Origin: Maribacter aquimaris
GTDB lineage: Bacteria; Bacteroidota; Bacteroidia; Flavobacteriales; Flavobacteriaceae
Assembly: GCF_014596745.1 (NCBI RefSeq)
Contig: NZ_JABTCF010000001.1
Coordinates: forward strand, 310,001 to 374,000
DNA length: 64,000 nt
Direction: 5' to 3'
A program made the position numbers and the translations under genes. Positions 42,863 to 48,153 of this stretch are shown in pieces (position 1 is the stretch's first letter; every line of letters begins with the position of its first letter). The notes under the pieces were generated by a model. It saw nothing but the letters and a program-made list of their open reading frames with translations, had not been told where the DNA came from and made no database searches.

Positions 42863-43624
42863 TTAGTTTCTACCTTGGTTGAACTGATTTTTCAATTCCT
42901 CCATGGACTCTTGTAATTGTCGTAATAGTCCCTTTTCCGTAGTGGCATCTATCCCAAAGGTTATCTTACTGTTTACCTGCCATATTTCCTGCACCTGTTG
43001 CGGTTCAATTTCGTAAGGTGGATAGGTTTCATTCAAGGATATTAAAGTGATATTGTTGGAAGCAGGGGCCTTTTCGATTTTCTTGACCAAGACAGCATCC
43101 TGCAAAACCACCACATAAATTTTATTGGGACTTACATGTGAAATATCCTCAACCGCTTTGGCCAAAACCCATTCCCCCGGTTTCAAATTAGGCAACATAC
43201 TATCACCCTCAACCTGAAAACCCCTATACGTGGCATTCCTGAATTCCGGCAACGGCAAATCAAATGCCGGTAATTGCTTATACCAACTCGTATCCTGTAT
43301 GTTTTGCGGATACCCTGCGGCAGCCTTCGCATTTACCAATACCATATTTTCATTATCCGAGGAATCCACGGTAACGACCTTAGGAATCACACTTGTGTTG
43401 GAAGTCTCCAAATACTGCATCCCACTTTCCCCAAACAACCATAAGGGGTTTATCTTGAATTGTTTCAAAAGCTCGGCAACTACCCTACCCGATAATTTTG
43501 TCCTCCCTCTTTCTATATCCGCCGTTGTACTACTAATACCCAAAACCTTTGCAAATTCGGCCTGCGTATACCCCAAGGTCCTTCGAACCTCGGTAAACCG
43601 TTTTAATATAAGTTCATTTTCCAT
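42863..43624 (-). CDS. LexA-like HTH-S24 repressor
   Basis: A 253-residue regulator. Residues 5-60 form an XRE-type helix-turn-helix (LGYTQAEFAKVLGISSTTAD); 95-225 form a peptidase S24 domain with an Ala-Gly self-cleavage site at 103-104 (KAAAGYPQ), nucleophile Ser142 (EGDSMLPNLKPGE) and general-base Lys181 (VLVKKIEK). DNA damage (RecA filament) or another cue would trigger self-cleavage and derepression, as for LexA and phage CI. It faces the 61-residue ORF and repair gene across three palindromic operators, one in its own promoter. Residues after 225 are a short helical tail. Confidence 0.9.
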   Translation of the reverse strand: MENELILKRFTEVRRTLGYTQAEFAKVLGISSTTADIERGRTKLSGRVVAELLKQFKINPLWLFGESGMQYLETSNTSVIPKVVTVDSSDNENMVLVNAKAAAGYPQNIQDTSWYKQLPAFDLPLPEFRNATYRGFQVEGDSMLPNLKPGEWVLAKAVEDISHVSPNKIYVVVLQDAVLVKKIEKAPASNNITLISLNETYPPYEIEPQQVQEIWQVNSKITFGIDATTEKGLLRQLQESMEELKNQFNQGRN

Positions 43625-43637
43625 AATCCCTGTCCGG

Positions 43638-43693
43638 TCGAGCGCAGTCGAGACCTAAATCAATGAATAGTACTACCTCTCGACTGCGCTCGA
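43638..43693. repeat. 16-bp inverted repeat in the repressor leader
   Basis: TCGAGCGCAGTCGAGA at 43638-43653 and its perfect inverse TCTCGACTGCGCTCGA at 43678-43693, with a 24-nt loop. It would form a hairpin in the 5' leader of the repressor mRNA, 14 nt from the ATG. The arm sequence is a dispersed repeat I associate with flavobacterial genomes. Confidence 0.85.
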
Positions 43694-43717
43694 GGGGCTA
43701 TATTGGTTTTCACTTCC

Positions 43718-43746
43718 CAAAGATACATATTTAGGAATATATCCAA
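43718..43746 (-). promoter_or_regulatory. Promoter of the S24 repressor gene
   Basis: On the - strand TTG (43746-43744), an 18-nt spacer and TATCTTTG (43725-43718). Operator 1 (43734-43744) lies inside the spacer and touches the -33 box, which implies autorepression. Confidence 0.7.
43734..43744. promoter_or_regulatory. Operator 1 (repressor side)
   Basis: GGAATATATCC, a GGA-x5-TCC near-palindrome in an AT-rich context, within the repressor promoter spacer. Confidence 0.6.
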
Positions 43747-43755
43747 AATATTATT

Positions 43756-43766
43756 GGAATATTTCC
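43756..43766. promoter_or_regulatory. Operator 2 (middle)
   Basis: GGAATATTTCC. Its centre is 22 bp from that of operator 1. Confidence 0.6.
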
Positions 43767-43773
43767 ATAATTA

Positions 43774-43784
43774 GGAATTATTCC
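43774..43784. promoter_or_regulatory. Operator 3 (repair-gene side)
   Basis: GGAATTATTCC. Its centre is 18 bp from that of operator 2, and it ends one base before the rightward -7 box. Confidence 0.6.
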
Positions 43785-43785
43785 A

Positions 43786-43793
43786 TATTTTTG
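43786..43793 (+). promoter_or_regulatory. -7 box for the 61-residue ORF and repair gene
   Basis: TATTTTTG, immediately after operator 3 and 20 nt before ATG 43814. No well-placed TTG -33, so it may be a weak or activator-assisted promoter when derepressed. Confidence 0.5.
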
Positions 43794-43813
43794 GATTATA
43801 TACCAATAGCAAG

Positions 43814-43999
43814 ATGACAAATACTACAATTCAGGACAAACTTGGTTTTTTCGCCCAAGCAGGCACAAGGGAGGTCCTTAGTGGAAACAAGATGGTCAAT
43901 ATTATTTTGGCCCGAACGAACACCCGGCCCGTATTGGCCAAAAAGGGTGTCGATAAAGATCGATTTGCCAGAAACAGCGTTCAATTAAGCTTATTTTAA
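43814..43999 (+). CDS. 61-residue protein ending in a clamp-binding motif; possible radical-SAM remnant
   Basis: A short protein beginning MTNTTIQDKLGFFAQAG and ending QLSLF, the consensus peptide by which repair proteins dock on the DNA polymerase sliding clamp. It lies behind an operator-controlled promoter and 5 bp before a TIGR03915-type gene. In related genomes, as I recall, that gene follows a ~400-residue radical-SAM repair protein (TIGR03916) whose ends look similar (an ...EKL..LADAAKYDV-like start and a clamp motif at the end). This ORF may be the fused ends left by an internal deletion, or a functional microprotein. No cysteines, so no Fe-S cluster. Confidence 0.6.
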   Translation: MTNTTIQDKLGFFAQAGTREVLSGNKMVNIILARTNTRPVLAKKGVDKDRFARNSVQLSLF

Positions 44000-44004
44000 A
44001 AATT

Positions 44005-44664
44005 ATGGAGAATTCTAGGGTATTAATCTATGATGGGAGTTTCAATGGTTTTCTTACTTCCTTACATATTGCACTTGAAAACAATATAGAAGTAATGGGG
44101 TTCCAAAAAAACAAAACCAAGCAAGAAGGACTTTTTATGGACCAGCTGGTCATTACCACCGATAAGACCAAGGCGGAATCCATTTGGAAAAGCCTCGAAA
44201 AGAAAAGTCACACGGCCATTCGAAGGATTTATTTTGCCTTTTTGAGTGAGGCTGATGGGATTGATTTTATGCTTTACGAATATGTCAGGAAATTATACGG
44301 CATGCTGAATGTCCACGATTTGGAACAATCCGCATTGATTGAAACCAAAATTTCCAAATTGGCATTGCAAGTGAACAGGGAGAAATCGTATACTGAAAGC
44401 ACTGTGGATTTTCAAAAGGACGATGTTTGCATATATTATGCTGAATTGGAACCCAGTTTCAATATACTACCCCTCATCTCCCGACATTTTAGGTATAAAT
44501 ACCCGAAACAACATTGGATCATCTATGATAACAAACGCCAATATGGTGTATATTACAATGGCATTTCCCTAGAAATTATTTCAAGGGAAACCAAGGAGAG
44601 CTACTTAATGGGTAAAATACATGCCAATCCTTATTTAGAGACAAGCTACAGGATGGCCATGTAA
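44005..44664 (+). CDS. TIGR03915-type putative DNA repair protein, C-terminally short
   Basis: A 219-residue soluble protein. It begins with VLIYDGSFNGFLTSLHIALE and has IWKSLEKKSHTAIRRIYFAFLS, FMLYEYVRKLYG, YYAELEPSFNILPLISRHFR and WIIYDNKRQYGVYYNGISLE, a pattern I know as the TIGR03915 family that partners a radical-SAM protein in a presumed DNA repair or modification system. Family members I recall are about 250 residues and end in a basic, aromatic tail (MPKRYWKYL-like); here the protein stops at YLETSYRMAM, so about 35-40 residues seem missing. It is 5 bp downstream of the 61-residue ORF and probably under the S24 repressor. Confidence 0.75.
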   Translation: MENSRVLIYDGSFNGFLTSLHIALENNIEVMGFQKNKTKQEGLFMDQLVITTDKTKAESIWKSLEKKSHTAIRRIYFAFLSEADGIDFMLYEYVRKLYGMLNVHDLEQSALIETKISKLALQVNREKSYTESTVDFQKDDVCIYYAELEPSFNILPLISRHFRYKYPKQHWIIYDNKRQYGVYYNGISLEIISRETKESYLMGKIHANPYLETSYRMAM

Positions 44665-44676
44665 TAACCGTCAAAA

Positions 44677-45204
44677 TCACTTGGTCCTATCCCCAACAAA
44701 ATGGTCGCTCTTATTTTGGAAAAGCACATTAAAAGAGGTTAAACTACCATAAATACGGGTTATATATTGCTGTAAATCAACTTTTTCCTGGTCATCCAAA
44801 TTCTTGCTGGCGTTTATCTTTTGTTCCATCACCCGAATCCTGTCCCGCACCATAACAATTTTATGAAAGAAGGTATCTATGGGTATTTCCTTATCCGAAA
44901 GACTGGCCTCACCAGGTTTGAGGACCAAGGAGCCGCCTTTCCATTTACTGGCCAAAGCTGTCGCATTATTGATATCGCTCCACTTTCTCAAAATCGATAT
45001 CAAACTTAACTCAACATCAGAAAAGCTAACCGTGTCCACTTCATCGGTAACAGCTTCTATAACATCAAATTGCGAATCGATATCAATAGTTTCCAATCCG
45101 CCATCGATAAAAGTTACCCAATACTGTTGTGAGGTAAGGTTGGTCACAACCCCTTTACCCAATTCAGGATGCTCGATCCTAGAACCTATGCCTAATAATT
45201 TCAT
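44677..45204 (-). CDS. Conserved hypothetical protein with KOW/SH3-like N-terminus
   Basis: A 175-residue soluble protein. Residues 1-50 (MKLLGIGSRIEHPELGKGVV, YWVTFIDGGLETIDID) look like the small beta-barrel that also occurs at the C-terminus of UvrD/PcrA helicases (here at 60026, TRFGRGEVINMEG). The remaining part is helical (LISILRKWSDINNATALASKWKGG; MVRDRIRVMEQKINASKNL). Function unknown; it is divergent from uvrA. The start at ATG 45204 is chosen because it opens the conserved barrel and lies behind a good promoter; the frame is open upstream to 45366 across that promoter. Confidence 0.72.
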   Translation of the reverse strand: MKLLGIGSRIEHPELGKGVVTNLTSQQYWVTFIDGGLETIDIDSQFDVIEAVTDEVDTVSFSDVELSLISILRKWSDINNATALASKWKGGSLVLKPGEASLSDKEIPIDTFFHKIVMVRDRIRVMEQKINASKNLDDQEKVDLQQYITRIYGSLTSFNVLFQNKSDHFVGDRTK

Positions 45205-45318: not shown

Positions 45319-48153
45319 ATGACAAACTACGAGGAAAATATCGAGGTCAAAGGAGCACGCGTGCACAACCTCAAAAATATAGATGTAACGATACCCAGGG
45401 AGAAATTGGTGGTCATCACCGGTCTGTCCGGAAGTGGTAAGTCATCACTTGCCTTCGACACTATTTATGCCGAAGGTCAGCGTAGGTACATCGAAACCTT
45501 TTCGGCCTATGCCCGACAATTCTTGGGTGGACTTGAGCGGCCCGATGTCGATAAGATCGATGGACTCTCCCCTGTTATAGCCATTGAACAGAAGACCACC
45601 TCCAAATCACCGAGATCCACAGTGGGCACCATTACGGAAATCTATGACTTCCTAAGGTTGCTTTTTGCCCGTGCTGGAGATGCCTATAGCTATAATACTG
45701 GAGAGAAAATGGTCAGTTATAGCGATGAGCAGATCAAAGAACTCATAAAAACGGATTATGATGGCAAAAGAATTAATATTCTCGCCCCAATCATCAAATC
45801 GAGAAAAGGACATTACCGGGAGTTGTTTGAGCAAATCGCAAAACAAGGCTTCGTAAAGGTCCGTGTAGATGGTGAAATCAAGGATATTGTCAAGGGAATG
45901 AAGGTCGACCGTTACAAGACCCATGATATTGAAATTGTCATAGATCGCCTAAAAATCTCCGAGGACGCGGAATTGGACAAACGAATAACCGAATCCTTGA
46001 ATACCGCTATGTATAGTGGTGATAATGTATTGATGGTTTTGGAGGAAGGTACCAAAGAACCTCGGTATTTCAGTCGTGACCTTATGTGTCCGTCAACAGG
46101 TATTTCCTATCCAACGCCCGAACCCAACACCTTTTCCTTCAATTCACCCAAGGGCATGTGCAATCGATGCAACGGCTTGGGTCACGTATACGAGGTAAAT
46201 GAGTTGAAGATTTTCCCAAATAAAAAACTTTCTATCCATGCCGGTGGTATTGCCCCCTTAGGGCCGTACAAGAAGTCTTGGGCATTCAAACAAATCGAAA
46301 CCATAGCCAAACGTTATGATTTTGAACTATCAGACCCCATTGATAAAATTCCCAATGAAGCCATTGATGTTTTATTGCATGGAGGAAAGGATAGTTTTGA
46401 TATCGAATCGAAAACCTTGGGCGTAAAACGCAATTATAAGATCGATTACGAAGGCATATCGCACTTCATCAAAAACCAGTTCGAAGAATCTGATAGCACT
46501 TCCATTAAACGATGGGCCAAGGAGTATATGGACAAGATTACCTGTCCCACCTGCAACGGTACACGGTTACGCAAAGAATCGTTGAATTTTAAGATTGAAG
46601 AGAAAACCATTGCCGAAATATCCCATATGGATATTGCTGAAGTCGCTGATTTTTTCAACGGATTGGAAAAGAGATTAAAAGGCAACCAGCTTAAGATTGC
46701 CGAGGAAATCATCAAGGAGATCAAAACCAGGATCCAGTTCTTATTGGATGTCGGTTTGGATTACCTTTCCTTGGACCGCAGTTCCAAATCACTTTCTGGG
46801 GGCGAGGCGCAACGTATTCGTTTGGCTACCCAAATAGGGACTCAATTGGTCGGTGTACTTTATATATTGGATGAGCCGAGTATTGGCCTTCACCAACGGG
46901 ACAACAACCGATTGATAAGCTCCTTGGAAGCCCTTCGGGATATAGGAAATTCAATCATTGTGGTGGAACACGACCGCGATATGATCGAAAGGGCCGATCA
47001 TGTTATCGATATCGGACCAAAAGCCGGTCATCATGGAGGTGAAATCATATCACAAGGTACCCCTGAGGAACTAAAACACCACAACACGTTAACGGCCGAT
47101 TACATTACGGGGGTGCGAACAATAGCCATACCCAAAAAACGCAGAAAAGGGAATGGTAAAAACATTGTACTATCGGGTTGTACAGGGAATAATTTAAAGA
47201 ACGTAAGTATTCGTATTCCCTTAGGCAAAATGATCGGGGTAACCGGGGTATCAGGCAGTGGCAAATCCACATTGATCAATGAAACCCTCTACCCTATTAT
47301 GAACGCACATTATTTTAATGGCGTTCGTAAGCCCATGCCCTATAAATCAATAAAAGGGCTAGAGCACATCGATAAAGTCATAGACATCAACCAAAGTCCG
47401 ATTGGACGCACCCCCCGGTCCAACCCAGCCACATATACAGGCGTATTCAGTGAAATACGCTCCCTTTTCTCAAAAACCCCAGAGGCAGCCATAAGAGGTT
47501 ATAAGCCAGGACGGTTTAGTTTTAATGTCAAAGGTGGTAGGTGTGAAACTTGTCAAGGTGGTGGTCTCCGGGTAATTGAAATGAACTTTTTACCGGATGT
47601 ATATGTCGAATGCGAAACATGTAATGGCAAGCGTTTTAATAGGGAGACCCTGGAAATACGATATAAGGGGAAATCAATCTCCGATGTTTTGGAAATGACC
47701 ATAAACGATGCCGTCGATTTTTTTGAATTGATCCCCAAAATCCACAGAAAACTAAAGACCATTCAAGATGTGGGATTAGGTTATATTTCACTAGGGCAGC
47801 AATCCACCACTCTTTCCGGTGGAGAGGCCCAACGGATAAAATTGGCAACCGAACTTTCAAAACGGGATACTGGCAATACTTTTTATATCTTGGACGAGCC
47901 AACCACGGGGCTACATTTTGAAGATATAAGGGTCTTAATGGAAGTACTGAACAAACTCGTAGACAAGGGGAATACCGTCTTGGTGATCGAGCATAATCTG
48001 GATGTCATTAAAATGGCCGACCATATCATCGATATAGGATACGAAGGTGGTCGTGGTGGAGGAATGGTCGTTGCCGAAGGCACGCCCGAAGAAATCTGTA
48101 AAAACCAAAAAAGTTACACCGCACAATTTTTAAGACCTGAATTGGGTTTATAA
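45319..48153 (+). CDS. uvrA: Excinuclease ABC subunit A
   Basis: A 944-residue DNA damage-recognition ATPase of nucleotide excision repair. Two ABC modules: Walker [21 protein letters not shown] (about residue 34) and [18 protein letters not shown] (about 645); signatures [16 protein letters not shown] and [16 protein letters not shown]; zinc modules with [24 protein letters not shown] and the pair [16 protein letters not shown] / [16 protein letters not shown]. Length is normal. Start chosen at ATG 45319 ([20 protein letters not shown]), preceded by AAAAGG and the -7 box. Not adjacent to uvrB. Confidence 0.98.

Follow-up and report, generated by a model that had tools for sequence, protein, structure and literature searches.

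A Putative Sliding-Clamp Adaptor, Similar to Both Ends of a Radical-SAM Enzyme, in a Non-Canonical LexA Cassette of Maribacter aquimaris

Introduction

The S24 repressors considered here are restricted to the Bacteroidetes; one group of them, found mainly in the Flavobacteriaceae, binds the motif GGA-N5-TCC (Sanchez-Osuna et al., 2021, PMC8565304). For this group, electrophoretic mobility shift assays and induction by mitomycin C are reported from S. agarivorans, and several copies of the motif per promoter were noted (PMC8565304). A locus of this kind is described here from Maribacter aquimaris (assembly GCF_014596745.1, contig NZ_JABTCF010000001.1, positions 310,001–374,000). The window, meaning this whole 64,000-nucleotide stretch, in whose coordinates all positions are given, contains at 42863–44664 a cassette with three genes and, between the first two, an array of operators:

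42863..43624, (-) strand: helix-turn-helix (HTH)-S24 repressor, a non-canonical LexA of the GGA-N5-TCC type, 253 amino acids (aa), with predicted cleavage site A103-G104 and dyad S142/K181
43814..43999, (+) strand: microprotein of 61 aa, with an N-terminal segment and a C-terminal QLSLF that are collinear with both ends of TIGR03916
44005..44664, (+) strand: solitary, C-terminally shortened TIGR03915/DUF4130 protein, 219 aa

The repressor shares with the Bacteroidetes non-canonical LexA its HTH_3 and S24 domains, the Ala-Gly and Ser-Lys residues, and GGA-N5-TCC in its own promoter; likewise shared are SOS targets that include dinB and an SplB-like radical S-adenosylmethionine (radical-SAM) gene. 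No difference was found in the repressor itself, which was assigned to the class by these testable features (PMC8565304). Neither the divergent three-operator geometry, nor the microprotein, nor a solitary TIGR03915 is described in the sections of that paper covered here, and the terms “DUF4130,” “clamp,” and “hypothetical” do not occur in its main text. What is new is the operon (microprotein plus solitary TIGR03915) and the operator geometry. Since the repressor and its box are known, the SOS part of this study amounts to confirmation, in another genus, of what has been published, with the geometry added.

The second system for comparison is the TIGR03916-TIGR03915 pair, which we take to be the COG1573-COG4277 operon of the 2021 LexA paper; TIGR03915 is ordinarily found together with TIGR03916, a radical-SAM protein. 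The Maribacter locus resembles it in the core residues of TIGR03915, the operon slot, and the SOS operators, but the radical-SAM partner (TIGR03916) is absent, TIGR03915 has lost H128, R129, R135, and its tail, and a 61-aa protein is present instead. A third comparison is with clamp-binding repair proteins, of which QLxLF-type pentapeptides are a motif: the terminal QLSLF of the microprotein is alike, and may bind the clamp in the same way, but there is no catalytic domain. DUF4130 has been predicted to be a mutagenesis-related enzyme with links to SplB-like radical-SAM proteins and to uracil-DNA glycosylases (PMC3765255). In Acinetobacter, UmuDAb-DdrR combines a non-LexA damage repressor with a genus-specific accessory protein (PMC11332147). 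The likeness is by description only: DdrR is a corepressor, whereas nothing suggests such a role for the microprotein. The open-licence literature yielded no functional study of the TIGR03916-TIGR03915 pair, and no title or abstract describing such a microprotein (under clamp-binding SOS microproteins, radical-SAM/uracil-DNA glycosylase operons, later work on flavobacterial LexA, or a DHH link).

Our interpretation is that the microprotein probably descends from the TIGR03916 radical-SAM enzyme and serves, under SOS induction, as a clamp adaptor without catalytic activity.

The microprotein and the ends of the radical-SAM enzyme

In a preliminary description of this DNA, made from the sequence alone, the 61-residue open reading frame (ORF) was called a clamp-motif microprotein. 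Such a motif is indeed present, as the terminal QLSLF (residues 57–61); what had been overlooked is a likeness to both ends of TIGR03916, whose operon slot the microprotein occupies. The ORF has no cysteine, and so no CxxxCxxC. Thirty distinct radical-SAM proteins were collected for comparison, and one (L023; loci are designated by L numbers) was dropped for want of a recognized start, its listed end being QLQLF. QLxLF is found near the end of all 29 others, with a few residues after it in some; the 28 used for an N-terminal column table (one further protein was dropped) have the N-terminus [MV]-x-[FY]-x-R-x3-KL-x-[IV]-LADAAKYD, and I6, K9, L10, and A14 of the window microprotein are shared with the enzyme. 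The radical-SAM profile also gave weak matches to RuvA.

A set of 28 distinct microproteins was gathered by a filter for a clamp-type ending, which misses altered ends (such as the QPSLFD of L183, a microprotein locus scored as partnerless). Because the set was gathered by its ending, the N-terminus is its sole unselected feature. In a profile-profile comparison, the two best local alignments matched microprotein positions 1–36 to enzyme positions 1–36 (score 27.0), and 44–61 to enzyme columns 404–421 of 428, the QLxLF segment (score 25.2). The highest score among 300 microprotein profiles with shuffled columns was 17.6, and decoy profiles (the repressor, two TIGR03915, and the reversed enzyme) gave 10.2–14.1. 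When the N-terminal register was anchored at the start, 25 of the 28 microproteins scored above their own shuffles (z 1.6–4.8). These two tests were devised after the register had been seen, so were not blind; they took the place of a pairwise sliding comparison of eight microproteins with the radical-SAM N-terminus, which was weak (p ≤ 0.002 for three of the eight, one in the wrong register).

ORFs in the gap before TIGR03915 were also listed whatever their end. Eight of 14 cassettes, the window included, have one of 55–67 aa located 2–6 bases 5' of TIGR03915; all eight end in QLxLF, plus one residue in L046, L047, and L051. Among 149 genomes of the same family, the microprotein profile, some of whose rows came from these very loci, found eight at E < 1e-10, each at the cassette locus; beyond these there were five weak matches with E of 0.016–0.096, taken as noise. 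The N-terminal residues of the microprotein are conserved, while its middle drifts. The ratio of nonsynonymous to synonymous substitution rates (dN/dS), computable only for some pairs and in some of these saturated or resting on few changes, is 0.00–0.42 for the microprotein, 0.06–0.32 for TIGR03915, and 0.01–0.06 for the repressor.

Could this be an ordinary SOS locus of the type already published, in which a small ORF happens to stand between promoter and gene? The repressor and motif are indeed published (PMC8565304), and the ORF matches no NCBIfam family, and no Pfam family significantly, but the 28 distinct slot microproteins share an unselected N-terminal pattern and their profile scores are far above those of shuffles, making this explanation highly improbable.

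TIGR03915 without its partner

The “repair gene” of the preliminary description does match TIGR03915 above the cut-off (128.8 bits vs. 112.25), but it lacks the radical-SAM partner, a patch of three conserved residues, and the C-terminal tail. The match covers positions 1–195 of the 243 in the profile, with the C-terminal tail of the model unmatched, and the genome from which the window is taken has no match to TIGR03916. Within the 149-genome survey, TIGR03915 is found in 47 genomes and TIGR03916 in 32, all of which have both, leaving 15 with TIGR03915 alone. All 32 paired copies of TIGR03915 reach model position 242 or 243. Thirteen of the 15 unpaired ones stop at 190–229; of the other two, one reaches 243 (genome G026), and one is a scrap matching 197–241 (G132).

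Residues were compared among 42 enzyme-paired, 27 microprotein-paired, and 31 partnerless TIGR03915 sequences, in the numbering of the enzyme-paired L097, after removal of four very divergent rows (L185, L186, L188, and L189). H128, R129, and R135 are each retained in 42/42 of the enzyme-paired set; the corresponding counts are 4/27, 8/27, and 6/27 for the microprotein-paired set, and 3/31, 12/31, and 2/31 for the partnerless one. The window protein has S, Y, and D in these positions. From residue 214 on, each residue conserved in the paired set is retained in at most 11/27 and 16/31 of the others. YDGSFxGFL, W61, K127, E131, P156, D175, and R178 are mostly retained. Given a dN/dS below 1 in the pairs for which it could be computed, the microprotein and TIGR03915 both appear to be under selection, one region of TIGR03915 having been released from it.

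Relocation of the clamp motif into TIGR03915 was considered and rejected: none of 103 sequences contains one. The last residues of these proteins (44662–44664 in the window) are A-V, A-A, A-I, or A-M in 71 of 103, even where the tail is otherwise lost; this ending might be a protease tag.

A fold predicted for the enzyme-paired L097 protein (predicted local distance difference test score, pLDDT, of 80) shows a weak likeness to DHH-type entries, with a best E of 3.7e-4, a template modeling (TM) score of 0.41, and 8% identity. Ranks 1–7 of the PDB fold search were RecJ proteins along with one DHH-domain protein and one PAP phosphatase, which is likewise DHH-type. By sequence, TIGR03915 has no PDB relative at E up to 1.

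These losses could also be read as decay, in which case the microprotein and the shortened TIGR03915 would both be vanishing remnants and the repressor alone would be of consequence. TIGR03915 copies without the enzyme do have long branches on the TIGR03915 tree, conserved residues have been lost, and two loci have neither gene. However, the frames are open across many genera, dN/dS is below 1 for both in the pairs for which it could be computed, and the microprotein is conserved at its N-terminus even as its middle changes. A decaying remnant is quite unlikely.

Repressor, operators, and divergent promoters

The preliminary description proposed a self-cleavable HTH-S24 repressor, divergent from the 61-residue ORF and a TIGR03915-type gene. 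All of the coordinates check, and both domains score above their Pfam cut-offs: S24 at the C-terminus (PF00717, 51.6 bits) and HTH_3 at the N-terminus (PF01381, 31.0 bits). The residues named for self-cleavage (A103, G104, S142, and K181) are unchanged in 18/18 aligned homologs, and the protein is 99% identical to its counterpart in Maribacter polysiphoniae. In silico, then, a LexA-like repressor with the residues for self-cleavage is supported; cleavage itself is predicted from these residues.

The operators and promoters between the divergent genes are:

43734..43744, no strand: operator 1, GGAATATATCC, 25.7 bits
43756..43766, no strand: operator 2, GGAATATTTCC, 25.6 bits
43774..43784, no strand: operator 3, GGAATTATTCC, 26.5 bits
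43793..43803, no strand: imperfect fourth operator, GGATTATATAC, near the expected transcription start
43718..43725, (-) strand: -7 box of the repressor promoter, TATCTTTG, with a comparable TANNTTTG in most of 14 cassettes
43744..43746, (-) strand: -33 TTG of the repressor promoter, at an 18-base spacing, with one base in common with operator 1
43786..43793, (+) strand: -7 box of the microprotein-TIGR03915 operon, TATTTTTG, with TANNTTTG after operator 3 in most relatives

The three 11-bp near-palindromes first described are thus at their given positions, with a fourth, imperfect one overlooked; by the rule used for collecting sites, 8 of the 14 cassettes have one with this +19 offset. The repressor promoter is TTG-18-TATCTTTG exactly, with operator 1 in its spacer, as had been proposed, save for one base within the TTG. 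Operator 3 had been said to abut the -7 box of the operon, and TATTTTTG does begin after a gap of a single base. Operator 1 overlaps one promoter and operator 3 is one base from the -7 box of the other, so that occupancy should shut both. That the operators lie over both divergent promoters is supported in silico.

Chance occurrence was ruled out by bit scores, simulations, and recurrence of the array at the loci of relatives. Operators 1–3 are the only sites in the window with at least 12 bits; when 64 kb of sequence was simulated 20 times with a first-order Markov model, no site of at least 20 bits arose. The array, with a spacing of 22/23 and then 18 bp, is present at 80 of 107 distinct repressor loci; these remained from 119 loci with a repressor, by way of 114 after removal of identical rows. 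The 107 are a non-random sample (the nearest relatives of the window repressor plus enzyme-less loci that were deliberately fetched), so state counts in this set are not frequencies. Every one of the 40 GGA-W5-TCC sites gathered from 14 cassettes, the window included, is followed by an A. The plain word is not rare: with one mismatch allowed, GGAATWWTTCC is found 16 times in the window, against 13.2 expected. It is clustering and conservation, rather than word frequency, that carry the case for the operators.

Between the repressor start and its promoter, at 43637–43697, is an inverted repeat (GTCGAGCGCAGTCGAGA ... TCTCGACTGCGCTCGAG), which by eye resembles an intergenic repeat element.

Regulon

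The genome has 87 matches to GGAWWWWWTCCA, against 55 to the reversed control. This single pattern was used for the genome search, so sites without the flanking A are missed. In the stretches around these matches, sites of at least 21.6 bits are found at three places only: the cassette, a DNA polymerase IV gene (dinB), and a PA0069-family radical-SAM gene. The next-best site (19.8 bits) is inside a long ORF. Ten relatives were picked from genomes already in use. In all ten, dinB has two operators 19 bp apart; the PA0069-family gene has paired operators in all nine that possess it; and a second dinB paralog has operators in none of the ten. The recA gene of the window genome has no operator site, and there is none upstream of the uvrA gene in the window. 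A wider regulon including recA or uvrA was rejected on this absence of sites in the window genome, dnaE2, uvrC, and uvrD not having been looked at separately.

A GGA-N5-TCC regulon with dinB and the PA0069-family radical-SAM gene as predicted members is thus supported in silico. It agrees with the published regulon, and recA of S. agarivorans was likewise not induced (PMC8565304). The idea that the box may define a flavobacterial regulon without the classical LexA box is supported by its sharing between dinB and the PA0069-family gene in this genome and in relatives, but is not new, having been published in 2021 (PMC8565304). The genome scan proposed along with it, for the motif before damage genes, succeeds for dinB and fails for recA. 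The cassette is best explained as the home of this flavobacterial, non-canonical LexA.

At L194, several similar ORF-like segments (MGLNWARxDIVGMI...) 3' of dinB suggest a short repeat family.

Origin of the microprotein

The trees used here are quick ones with Shimodaira-Hasegawa-like approximate likelihood ratio (SH-aLRT) support, on which long branches meet. Loss of the enzyme is recurrent: on an S24+UvrA tree of 114 rows, enzyme presence requires 16–17 changes, with seven forced by strong branches; the microprotein state requires about 10–11, with four forced by well-supported branches. On the TIGR03915 tree, L129 (with microprotein) and several partnerless copies nest within the enzyme-paired clade. 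Two loci retain stubs: only the 5' end of the enzyme gene is left in L166, and only its last codons, before TIGR03915 (a 3' stub), in L154. The enzyme gene is therefore lost from this slot.

One history consistent with these data, which we put forward tentatively, is a conversion of enzyme to adaptor: flavobacterial lineages would have lost the catalytic body, repeatedly if L129 is an independent case, keeping an SOS-controlled protein of roughly 60 residues composed of the N-terminus that faced the partner and the clamp-type C-terminus. TIGR03915 would have given up its H-R-R surface and its tail in parallel, and the two proteins might now act non-catalytically at the clamp.

Several observations weigh against derivation of the microprotein from the enzyme, or against the adaptor role. 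No NCBIfam model matches the microprotein at E ≤ 1 and no Pfam family does so significantly, and a Pfam search with two microproteins found nothing. Only short stretches align (36 and 18 columns), with an unalignable middle, and the aligner itself gives them modest probabilities (32% and 21%), so that the end-to-end argument rests on shuffles, collinearity, and the identical slot. Because most of the microproteins were gathered by their ending, the shared ending and the C-terminal match are partly by construction. L047, L141, and L158, which are two to three residues shorter at the front, are the three of 28 that fail the start-anchored test. In the closest pairs the counts of changes behind dN/dS are small, and the predicted fold of the radical-SAM protein was too poor to use (pLDDT 48.8). 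Two Flavobacteriaceae loci, L130 and L167, have a different ORF of ~50 aa in the slot, alike in both (LE..RN..L..GYDYVV.KS..KK) and without a Pfam match. TIGR03915 persists without the microprotein, 36 of the 107 loci being scored as having neither partner (L183 among them). Finally, L141 (Zeaxanthinibacter enoshimensis) and L158 have operators, microprotein, an intact radical-SAM gene, and TIGR03915, in that order.

The last two loci bear on origin. With a microprotein beside an intact enzyme, deletion in place cannot account for every case, and it was dropped as sole route. The microprotein could instead be an independent or copied gene, either an old SOS clamp peptide encoded ahead of the enzyme or a partial tandem copy of the enzyme gene itself, left as sole survivor after enzyme loss; it might still be a clamp adaptor, but not one produced by deletion in place. 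L141 and L158 are what such a history would leave, and the 10–11 changes (four forced) would allow few origins and many losses. On the other side, the two group as sisters in both trees, and no microprotein was scored at 40 further radical-SAM loci; moreover, an unrelated origin would not explain the ordered match to both enzyme ends, although a partial copy would. We regard an independent or copied gene as rather doubtful. The microprotein may have come from the enzyme either by excision in place or by partial tandem copying with later loss of the enzyme.

Proposed mechanism

In the undamaged cell, the S24 repressor would occupy the three operators, covering both divergent promoters and keeping itself and the operon low. 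Upon damage, RecA-stimulated self-cleavage at A103-G104 would free both promoters, and elsewhere in the genome those of dinB and the PA0069-family radical-SAM gene. The ancestral induced operon would have encoded TIGR03916 and TIGR03915. Here, the radical-SAM gene would have been replaced by that for a derived 61-aa protein, consisting of an N-terminal segment and a clamp-type tail with the catalytic domain gone. The tail, by way of QLSLF, would hold the DNA sliding clamp, and the N-terminal segment would hold TIGR03915, or some other former contact of the enzyme, placing it at the clamp during damage.

The same tail could also serve to block. Being small, ending in a clamp-type motif, and lacking an enzyme domain, the microprotein would seem suited to compete for the clamp pocket, slowing replication or limiting polymerases during damage with no delivery of TIGR03915, and the persistence of TIGR03915 at loci without the microprotein would fit. 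However, the N-terminal segment is also retained, in register with that of the enzyme, and TIGR03915 begins 2–6 bases downstream in eight cassettes including the window, suggesting joint function. A clamp blocker thus appears unlikely. The likelihoods attached to the various explanations are not shares of a single whole, because the question of origin is partly separate from that of function.

If the clamp-adaptor interpretation is correct, and a hollowed-out enzyme has been kept for its two ends, contact peptides can outlive the chemistry they once served and take on the part of a small regulator. The wiring of the uncharacterized TIGR03916-TIGR03915 pair would be hinted at too, with the N-terminus of the enzyme directed to its partner and the C-terminus to the clamp. 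The patch lost from TIGR03915 would then be expected to face the enzyme or its product.

Neighboring genes

Two genes follow the cassette:

44677..45204, (-) strand: ORF of 175 aa without a family match; in many relatives it is conserved in this place, with the cassette on one side and uvrA on the other
45319..48153, (+) strand: uvrA, adjoining the cassette in many relatives

Where found, the 175-aa ORF is 73–87% identical, and in several relatives it is beside uvrA.

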